Shown piece by piece: positions 54,980 through 57,106 of a stretch of 64,000 nt of DNA (position 1 is the first letter of the stretch; each line of letters opens with the position of its first letter). The position numbers were made by a program, and so were the translations under genes. Below the pieces are notes generated by a model. It had not been told where the DNA came from and did no database searches. It was given only the letters and a program-made list of their open reading frames with translations. The stretch spans positions 1 to 64,000 of the forward strand of contig DAIDHP010000020.1 of NCBI GenBank assembly GCA_027459625.1, written 5' to 3'. The DNA is from Chthonomonadales bacterium. GTDB lineage: Bacteria; Armatimonadota; Chthonomonadetes; Chthonomonadales; CAJBBX01.

Positions 54980-56098
54980 TCAGGAGTTGATGTATGCGCG
55001 TGGCACGCGGGAGGTCAATCTCGTGGTGATATCGTGTTCCGTTGTCGGAACCATACGCGCCAAGTCCTCCGCCAATATCTTTTCATTAGCCTGTGCACCT
55101 ATCAATACGACTTCCGAACCAATGGAAGCATCAATGACATGAGACACATCCACAACCATCACGTCCATGCAGACTCTCCCCAAAATAGGACATCTTTTCC
55201 CAGATATGAGCACATCGGCTTTGTTGCCGAGCGCTCTTGGATAGCCATCCCCGTAACCTACAGGGATGGTGGCAAGCCTGGAATTGGTCCTTAGCACATG
55301 AGTACGCCCGTAGCTGATCGACGATCCAGCAGAAAGGGAGCGAATCGCAACGATTTGAGACTTTAATGTGAGCATGGGTTTGAGATTGGGAGAATCCACA
55401 TCCCCTGGAACGGAAGGGCGAATGCCGTATATTAACAAGCCCGGGCGAATCATGTTAAGTCGCGTTTCAGGATATCGCAATATTGCCGCGCTGCTTGCAC
55501 AATGCAGATGCTGTAAAAACGTATCCGTAGCCTCCACGGTCTTTACGATGCTGAGAAATGTTTGAAATTGATGTAATGTTATAGTTGCATCATCCTCCGG
55601 AACCGGAAAATGCGTCATCAATCCCGTTATGGTGATCCCATTCAAACGGTTAATCATATCCGCCAGCTTGGATGCCTGTTCAGGAAGACATCCGCTTCTG
55701 CCCATTCCCGTATCGACCTCGATGTGAACCTTCACGTTTGATCTCAGCTTATGAGCGGCTTTGCTCAACGCCAAGGCGGTTTCAAAATCCCCAATAATGG
55801 GTATGAACCGATGAAACACCACCTCTTCGGCTTCATCACGCTGTATCGGAGACAAAATGCAAATAGAAGCGCCCGGGGTGGCTTTCCCAAGTTGAATCGC
55901 CTCCTCCAAAGTGGCAACGCCCAGCCATTCGGCACCCGCGCTGACCGCCGCCTTGGATATCTCGCAGGCGCCGTGCCCGTATGCATCCGCCTTGACTATC
56001 GCCATGATATTCGTTCGCATCCCGACAATCTGGCGCAATTCTTGCATATTATGCCGCAGAGCGGAGATATCCACTTGCGCCATTACACGTTCTTTCAT
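54980..56098 (-). CDS. alr: Alanine racemase
   Basis: A 372-residue pyridoxal-phosphate enzyme making D-alanine for peptidoglycan. The PLP lysine is K36 in AIVKADAYGHGACEIS. Also present are HIEVDTGMGRSG, ITGLMTHFPVPED, MIRPGLLIYGI, IPVGYGDGYPRALGN (the second catalytic base Tyr) and VLGRVCMDVMVVDV-like sequence. Full length. Two Met codons near the start (56098, 56083) are possible. It is transcribed toward the NarL-type regulator, with which it is separated by 11-23 nt, so the two may be co-transcribed. Confidence 0.95.
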   Translation of the reverse strand: MKERVMAQVDISALRHNMQELRQIVGMRTNIMAIVKADAYGHGACEISKAAVSAGAEWLGVATLEEAIQLGKATPGASICILSPIQRDEAEEVVFHRFIPIIGDFETALALSKAAHKLRSNVKVHIEVDTGMGRSGCLPEQASKLADMINRLNGITITGLMTHFPVPEDDATITLHQFQTFLSIVKTVEATDTFLQHLHCASSAAILRYPETRLNMIRPGLLIYGIRPSVPGDVDSPNLKPMLTLKSQIVAIRSLSAGSSISYGRTHVLRTNSRLATIPVGYGDGYPRALGNKADVLISGKRCPILGRVCMDVMVVDVSHVIDASIGSEVVLIGAQANEKILAEDLARMVPTTEHDITTRLTSRVPRAYINS

Positions 56099-56164
56099 AT
56101 TTTTTCCGAAAAGAATTGAAATTGAATGAAACTTTTTCCGTTTTCAAGTGTCAAAGTATACAGC

Positions 56165-56298
56165 AGCTCGATTAGGGGAAACCCTTTTGCCTTTCTCGAT
56201 CCTTTATTGGGTTGTGTCTCATTTATTTGCGACGCAGGCCCCACTACGAGAACAGGCGTTTTACGGAGGATGTCATCGCTGACACCTCCTCTTTTTTT
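56165..56298 (+). ncRNA. Candidate structured small RNA with intrinsic terminator (plus strand)
   Basis: Three helices lie end to end. (1) AGGG-GAAA-CCCT (56174-56185), a GNRA-type hairpin. (2) GCCTTTCTCG (56189-56198) pairs with CGAGAACAGGC (56247-56257) over ten pairs with one bulged C, enclosing an asymmetric loop and an inner stem GGGTT.GTGTC (56209-56218) with GACGC.A.GGCCC (56231-56241). (3) The terminator at 56265-56298. The inner stem has three G-U pairs that would be A-C mismatches on the other strand, so the plus strand is the likely RNA. A -10-like TATACA is at 56157-56162; no good -35 box. No gene lies downstream on this strand, so it looks like a stand-alone RNA and not a leader. 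It is shorter than 6S RNA and I cannot assign a family. Confidence 0.5.
56265..56298 (+). terminator. Intrinsic terminator of the candidate small RNA
   Basis: GGAGG-A-TGTCA (56265-56275) pairs with TGACA-CCTCC (56280-56289) around a TCGC loop, with one bulged A, and is followed by TC and seven T residues (56292-56298). Both neighbouring genes are on the minus strand, so it must end a plus-strand transcript. Confidence 0.8.
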
Positions 56299-56302
56299 GC
56301 CT

Positions 56303-56644
56303 TGATCAACGTTAATAAACTGCGCCTTTTTCGCTTACCTTATACCACTCCATGAGTCGCAATAGTCTCAAAATCACCACCGTCCGGAATGTGATAATGA
56401 GATGCTCGTAATCAGGTTGATATAAATTATATCCCCCTTCGACGCCAATTGCAAAATTCAGGCTGACCGAGGCAACAGGCGATTTCTCGCAAGAAGAATG
56501 AACCTTTTTGGAATAACACTTACAGTTAAAATGGAGAGAACGTTACCGCGTACCCTACGTTGTGTCGCGGATTATTTTACACGTACATGGGCGCATCCGG
56601 ATGGGGTGGATACCGTCCGGATGCAATAAGGGAGTGAGTTGGAG
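56303..56644. other. Intergenic, no gene supported
   Basis: About 340 nt between the small RNA and the cyclic-nucleotide-binding gene. On the minus strand a frame is open for 68 codons (about 56334-56536) but has no start codon with a ribosome site before its last ATG. No repeat or hairpin stands out. Confidence 0.45.
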
Positions 56645-57106
56645 CTATTTCGATATGCCATAAGATTCAAACAACTGTCGTCTCGTCGCTTGCAATCTCT
56701 GCTCGAGAATTGCGGCGAACTTTTTCAGTAGATTGTATCCCAGCATGGGGTTCTCCTCGCATGTTTGGCGAAGCGCTTCACCATCGAGGGCAATTGTTTT
56801 CACAGAATCTATCGCGCGAGCGTCAAAATGCCAACTAAAAGGCGGAACAAGCCAGGACCATCCAAGCACTTCCCCTGGACCAAGAGTCTGCACGTGGATG
56901 TTGCCTATTTCCAGATTAAAAATCTCCAGAATAACCTTTCCCTCCACGATTAAATAGCAATGCTTAGCCTCTTCGCCTTCACGAAATATATTCTGCGACG
57001 AGCTGAAATTCTGGAAGGATGCACATTTCATCACCAAATCCAATTCATCATCCGGAATTCCTTCCAAAAGGGGATGATTTGCGATCATTTGTTGCATGAT
57101 ACTCAT
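56645..57106 (-). CDS. Cyclic-nucleotide-binding domain protein (CNB only)
   Basis: A 153-residue protein consisting of a single CNB/Crp-type beta-roll (about 12-120): NHPLLEGIPDDELDLVMKC, REGEEAKHCYLIVEGKVILE, LGPGEVLGWSWLVPP, followed by C-terminal helices without a DNA-binding HTH. The phosphate-binding cassette GEVLGWSWLVPPFSWHFDAR lacks the usual Arg-Ser/Thr pair of cAMP binders, so the ligand is uncertain. The site AGGAGGAAAACT precedes the ATG. Possibly a binding partner for a membrane or enzyme complex. Whether any real cyclase exists in the genome matters here, because the cyclase-like gene at 5887 looks inactive. Confidence 0.85.
   Translation of the reverse strand: MSIMQQMIANHPLLEGIPDDELDLVMKCASFQNFSSSQNIFREGEEAKHCYLIVEGKVILEIFNLEIGNIHVQTLGPGEVLGWSWLVPPFSWHFDARAIDSVKTIALDGEALRQTCEENPMLGYNLLKKFAAILEQRLQATRRQLFESYGISK

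Follow-up and report, generated by a model that had tools for sequence, protein, structure and literature searches.

We find that the gap between alr and a gene for a cyclic-nucleotide-binding (cNMP-binding) protein appears to encode a conserved stand-alone small RNA. The gap lies in the window, a stretch of 64,000 nt that is part of contig C20 in the 4.55-Mb draft genome of a Chthonomonadales bacterium. We consider it somewhat probable that this RNA is a sigma-E-like, trans-acting sRNA of envelope stress, which would block the prepilin family through the signal-peptide codons that its members share. Comparison among genomes shows a conserved predicted promoter, 5′ end, hairpin layout and terminator, independence from alr and computed complementarity to prepilin genes far above chance. 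An initial annotation, made from the letters alone, had called the locus an orphan structured RNA; the informative parts beyond it are the upstream ECF-type promoter and the prepilin-antisense 5′ end.

Architecture and strand of the RNA

Read along the plus strand, the gap holds first a promoter, then AGCAGCUCGAUU and three hairpins: one small, one irregular and one that forms the terminator with its U-run (Table 1). Both neighboring genes are on the minus strand, which places the structured RNA opposite to both and makes it a leader of neither, as had been proposed, and the three consecutive helices that had been described do fold as P1, P2 and P3. The intrinsic terminator that had been claimed is present and reads GGAGG-A-UGUCA-UCGC-UGACA-CCUCC, followed by UCUUUUUUU; it was identified by direct reading and is absent from the list of an automated terminator scan. 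With regard to extent, the earlier 3′ end stands, and the likely 5′ end lies slightly before the earlier start at 56165, at about 56162, where the conserved GCAGCUCG starts.

Table 1. Coordinates of the RNA, its parts, its neighbors and one prepilin segment in the window
Feature	Position	Strand	Basis or remark
alr (alanine racemase)	54980-56098	minus	Divergent neighbor; synteny only, functional link with the RNA unnecessary
ECF-sigma-type promoter (TGAAAC 56127-56132, 17 nt, GTC 56150-56152)	56127-56152	plus	Consensus match
Stand-alone small RNA, predicted 137 nt	56162-56298	plus	Identity to G001, fold z, 21 of 31 order genomes
Unpaired invariant 5′ end AGCAGCUCGAUU	56162-56173	plus	Proposed seed, antisense to ...(L)IELL prepilin codons
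P1 hairpin AGGG-GAAA-CCCU	56174-56185	plus	Also antisense to GGN-TTY-ACN codons
Pyrimidine-rich stretch (linker) UUUGCCUUUCUCGAUCCUUUA	56186-56206	plus	Partly inside P2; contains CCUUUC
P2 irregular hairpin	56189-56257	plus	Sequence varies between genera
P3 intrinsic terminator	56265-56298	plus	Hairpin 56265-56289, then U-run to 56298
cNMP-binding protein gene	56645-57106	minus	Other neighbor of the RNA
Prepilin N-terminal segment	46966-47040	plus	One of 60 in the genome; weak candidate target, −24.9 kcal/mol

The predicted RNA has a minimum free energy of −46.6 kcal/mol (shuffle mean −32.78, sd 3.5; z −3.95), and none of 200 shuffles folded as well; for the wider interval 56150-56310 the z was −3.30, with 1 of 200 shuffles as good. 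Since the minus strand of the region folds too (z −3.20), the fold alone cannot choose the strand; what points to the plus strand is the U-run together with the promoter upstream and the comparison across genomes. The 26 copies that were folded have a common layout, with a mean fold z of −3.2, and opening nt 1-11 of the RNA would cost 0.33 kcal/mol. A hairpin followed by a U-run was found in those copies whose sequences were read, and the RNA thus has the rho-independent terminator that characterizes sigma-E-dependent sRNAs.

A terminator behind a conserved 5′ part would also suit an attenuator leader of a plus-strand gene. We regard this as very unlikely, because the next gene in the window is on the minus strand and because a convergent gene, judged by eye, lies behind the terminator in G016, G021, G028, G007, G009 and G011.

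Length and the internal loop in P2 could instead point to a 6S-like RNA that binds RNA polymerase, a reading that we find scarcely credible. The likeness to 6S RNA (RF00013) is one of length and irregular stem, whereas the RF00013 covariance model is unmatched at the RNA, and Rfam searches of the RNA, the window and relatives gave no match at the gathering score, the weak matches being to other families. Where 6S RNA has one long stem with a central bubble, this RNA has an unpaired 5′ end and three separate hairpins; its copies range from 85 to 144 nt, share no such stem and conserve the unpaired 5′ end instead. The first annotation had judged the 6S look to be superficial, and both the Rfam result and a separate, sub-threshold 6S candidate elsewhere in the genome bear this out. 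That candidate, the only one in the genome, lies at C17:75344-75524 (L022) and scores 24.9 bits against a cut-off of 46.4.

Distribution among relatives and covariation

With a covariance model built from the promoter and the first 36 nt of the RNA, 21 of 31 genomes of the order carry the RNA at E ≤ 2.5e-8, so that the conservation for which the initial annotation had asked exists, and the other 10 have no copy at E ≤ 1e-4. The RNA adjoins alr in 20 of the 21, the exception being G015, where it lies between a membrane-protein gene and a tmRNA gene, far from alr. This copy (L150, 1693-2044) is the sole one in the order away from alr. Across the phylum, 31 of 291 genomes match at E ≤ 1e-4, comprising the 21 order genomes, G040 (in two places), six genomes of genus g23, G257, G184 and G168; look-alikes of the RNA outside the order come from three further families. 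In G184 and G168 the match is confined to model positions from about 32 or 40 to 78, on the 3′ side, and both were counted as prepilin antisense, the sequence of G184 being the one of the two that was inspected.

Within the genus, G001 is 97.1% identical over both the RNA and the promoter, and identity falls to 76-85% in the intergenic DNA directly behind the terminator. A sequence search of the own genome and 60 relatives returned a near-full-length match only in G001, and query positions 12-48 were matched widely. The matches that were read are of two kinds, upstream of alr and antisense to it (an alr match is present in 57 of the 61 genomes) or at the N-terminal codons of prepilin genes, and those read outside alr are mostly the latter. 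We found the element in the alr upstream regions of 20 of 50 genomes, every one in the order. These alr-linked copies were picked by eye through the shared AGCAGCTCG, a false second place in L056 being left out, and the promoter-like arrangement was then found in all 20. Their 5′ end reads GCA(G/A)CUCG, in which GCA and CUCG are invariant and the G between them occurs in 19 of the 20. The label "orphan" is wrong, because the RNA is one of a family that has a promoter and a partner that can be predicted.

A scan of genome contigs for the exact promoter-plus-seed pattern gave 12 stretches, 11 of them in records titled Chthonomonadaceae, Chthonomonas, Chthonomonadales, Armatimonadetes or plain "bacterium". 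The remaining match, in Nocardioides carbamazepini (L171, 3857-3907), is outside the phylum and probably due to chance. The six genomes of genus g23 (family f6; L173-L176, L178, L179) carry a shortened version of the RNA (the three that were folded measure 85-86 nt), in which the common 5′ end is followed by GGGAAAGCCCUCCC or a close variant and which, as far as read, is not beside alr. The two copies of G040 are at C139:44229-44307 and C97:24395-24472, the first with the promoter GGAAAC-N16-CGTC.

Compensatory changes in relatives, which had been named as a check, were found, with 9 of 35 predicted pairs changed on both sides in one group of four sequences; none of the 36 pairs in the own genus carries a double change, and the P2 stem on which the check was to turn has none there. 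In two groups of three sequences the double-sided changes numbered 3 of 38 and 7 of 43 pairs, the consensus fold of these groups being doubtful. Double changes were seen only in other genera and mostly in P3, and covariation is clear only within small groups. For P1, covariation was not supported on the covariance-model alignment, where 388 of 500 shuffles scored as high, because loop lengths differ and the model did not fit this hairpin. Aligning on the P1 loop instead gives varied pair types, a list that we discount as evidence because it was fitted per sequence and picked another stem in some rows.

Promoter and candidate sigma factor

The arrangement TGnnAC-spacer-GTC is the layout of ECF-sigma promoters. 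We found TGnnAC-N17-GTC in 18 of the 20 alr-linked copies, with near-matches in the other two (CGTAAC with the same gap in G018, TGTAAC with an 18-nt gap in G030), and the first G of GCAGC follows 9-11 nt after the GTC. The −35 and −10 elements of the window itself (TGAAAC, TGTC) are off consensus. No plus-strand sigma-70 promoter was found at the RNA in a promoter scan, which is expected if the promoter is of the ECF type.

We then looked for the sigma factor among Sigma70_r2 matches, of which the own genome has 22 and G013 has 30. A first scan of 30 of these 52 loci gave two strict promoter matches, and the exact motif lies upstream of one ECF gene among the 30, in G013. The second strict match (L200) lies where an rpoD-like gene begins and was treated as chance. 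A match to the G013 ECF protein is present in all 31 order genomes, including those with no copy of the RNA, and the best match was examined in 30 of them (G014 left out). TGTAAC-N16-CGTC occurs within 400 nt upstream of this sigma gene in 16 of the 18 loci of families f2 and f3 (G017 has CGTT and G018 has none), at a chance rate of one match in 194,614 positions. In f1, the family of the window, none of 12 loci has the promoter within 400 nt upstream, and none of the 10 that were read has it 6-11 kb upstream.

The ECF gene is flanked by tamB on one side and an Omp85/bamA-type gene on the other; Pfam identified TamB upstream and Omp85/POTRA downstream in the two genomes tested, and at the other sigma loci the downstream neighbor was similar by eye (the contig of G012 gave none). 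We infer that this tamB/omp85-linked ECF factor is the regulator of the RNA. Since the promoter was found at f2/f3 loci and not in f1, the assignment is strong in f3 and an extrapolation in f1. The leader of the ECF gene in G013 (L209, on contig C5) contains AACAGCTCGAT, the same word as the 5′ end of the sRNA, behind the sigma gene's own TGTAAC-N16-CGTC; the word was not seen in the other leaders that were read.

Complementarity to prepilin genes and comparison with known RNAs

In type IV prepilin genes, the codons for GFTLIELL are complementary to the first 27 nt of the RNA. When reverse-complemented, the 5′ part reads QGFTLIELL exactly in G028, G021 and G040, KGFPLIELL in the window and RGFPLTELL, behind an ATG, in G005. 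A complement that can often be read in frame as the start of a prepilin, together with the position upstream of alr in 20 of the 21 order copies and a minus strand that itself folds, would be understandable if the element were a remnant of a prepilin antisense strand, or regulatory DNA or a leader element of alr, with no function as an sRNA. We hold this to be improbable, because promoter and terminator are conserved on the opposite strand, because copies occur away from alr in G015 and outside the order, and because single-base differences break the frame in G003, G007, G009, G011, G015, G022, G025 and G030, which argues that pairing and not coding has been kept. A coding or leader function on the alr strand was rejected because of the indels and stops that interrupt the frame and because of the copies away from alr.

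The own genome has 60 PF07963 (prepilin) matches, 59 of them over the cut-off. From 20 stretches of 20 kb and the window, using simple ORF calling and dropping stretch-end and overlapping ORFs, we assembled a target set of 27 prepilins and 333 other genes. RNAduplex with nt 1-41 gave a mean of −28.9 for the prepilins (n = 27) compared with −22.9 for the others (n = 333; p = 8e-6), and when 60 shuffled RNAs were compared using 150 of the 333 others, the difference was +3.1 (sd 1.1) against an observed −5.8 that none of them reached. When nt 1-27 were used with opening energies, the 8 best of the 360 start regions of the own genome were all prepilins, and a net energy of −8 kcal/mol or lower was found for 9 of 27 prepilins and 3 of 333 others (p = 1.2e-8), a comparison with a small asymmetry in that prepilin start regions were centered on the GF codon and the others on the called start.

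We obtained z values for nt 1-27 over all exact-pattern sites of five genomes, namely −7.5 in G008 (32 sites), −6.7 in G007 (26), −9.0 in the own genome, G000 (29), −5.6 in G015 (20) and −5.8 in G013 (20), with none of 400 shuffles as good in each, whereas the control region nt 38-64 gave +1.3, 0.2, −0.1, −0.6 and −0.2, respectively. Prepilins were picked as the target class after the first matches were seen, which makes the result look somewhat more surprising against the shuffles than it should; even a large correction for that choice would leave z values of this size standing. By computed complementarity, the RNA thus has what the class of sigma-E-dependent sRNAs has, an accessible region complementary to envelope mRNA starts.

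Behind the first 27 nt, CCUUUC in the linker is complementary to GAAAGG before many prepilin starts of the own genome, and in single examples there the predicted pairing extends into the ribosome-binding site. GAAAGG is the likely ribosome-binding site of many prepilin genes in this genome (L080-L109). Against the prepilin leaders of its own genome, the linker was the best of 26 RNAs in G000 and G007 and not in G015, G008 and G013, and z values for the five genomes were mixed (−1.6, −2.4, 0.1, −0.9 and −1.9). Codon co-adaptation was not found among 26 RNAs, the own RNA ranking 24 in G015, 16 in G008 (20 of 32 sites used), 6 in G013, 20 in G007 (20 of 26 sites) and 5 in G000 (26 sites), and in G000 and G013 many prepilins have GAA at the codon for which the seed would require GAG.

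A seed that does not follow the codon usage of its own genome could belong to an sRNA that is genuine and ECF-controlled but acts mainly on other envelope mRNAs; its complementarity to prepilin genes would then stem in part from the hairpin and from common codons. This idea is in line with the z values of only −2.4 to −3.7 that the first 12 nt give by themselves, and with the weak model matches resembling prepilin antisense in several genomes that lack the RNA. We consider it possible but rather unlikely, given that the full 27 nt reach −5.6 to −9.0 in all five genomes, that the complement is an exact QGFTLIELL in three and that eight prepilins top the net-energy ranking of 360 regions.

Prepilin repression under envelope stress remains our preferred reading, and we infer that the RNA is transcribed, that it pairs in the cell and that repression is the outcome. 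The ECF factor tied to tamB/omp85 would respond to trouble in outer-membrane assembly, recognize TGTAAC-N16-CGTC and transcribe both the RNA and, in two families, its own gene. The accessible 5′ end GCAGCUCGAU and the small hairpin would together act as 27 nt antisense to the GFTLIELL codons, with the pyrimidine-rich stretch behind them pairing with the ribosome-binding site. Pairing a few codons after the start would block initiation of prepilin translation and leave the mRNAs of 20-60 prepilin genes open to decay, and a single RNA might in this way relieve the envelope of a whole exported family. Whether one sRNA silences a family of 20-60 members by being an antisense copy of ribosome-binding site and signal-peptide codons is, in our judgment, evenly balanced. 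Such a target could account for a seed frozen across the phylum while the remaining RNA diverges, because the target protein motif cannot drift far.

Envelope-stress sRNAs are known mainly from proteobacteria. If the proposal is true, one exists in Armatimonadota, a phylum from which few members have been cultured, and it has been found along with its likely sigma factor and a target rule open to test. One RNA would then control a large paralogous family with no separately evolved site per gene, and outer-membrane assembly (tamB/omp85) would be linked to the production of prepilin-like proteins. Searches of open-access literature on sRNA and prepilins, pilin mRNA, and RNA in Armatimonadetes/Armatimonadota turned up no such prepilin-targeting sRNA.

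CcsR is a C-rich anti-Shine-Dalgarno sRNA under stress sigma control. The RNA would resemble this type in its pyrimidine-rich stretch, which is able to pair with ribosome-binding sites, and in its predicted stress sigma control; it differs in that the conserved part here is GCAGCUCGAU with P1, whereas the C-rich stretch varies between genera.

The seed of RybB is its 5′ end. MicA and RybB, sigma-E-dependent sRNAs of enterobacteria, limit the synthesis of outer-membrane proteins under sigma E (PMC4618604). The likeness is that the RNA stands alone, ends in a terminator and would be controlled by an envelope-stress ECF sigma factor, that hairpins lie behind the pairing region and that several mRNAs of one envelope-protein class would be its targets. 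The present RNA differs in that its proposed targets are prepilins, at shared signal-peptide codons, in that the sigma gene is linked to tamB/omp85, and in its phylum; no Rfam match at the RNA places it in the MicA or RybB sequence families. The best reading is that the RNA would be a functional analogue of MicA and RybB outside their sequence families.
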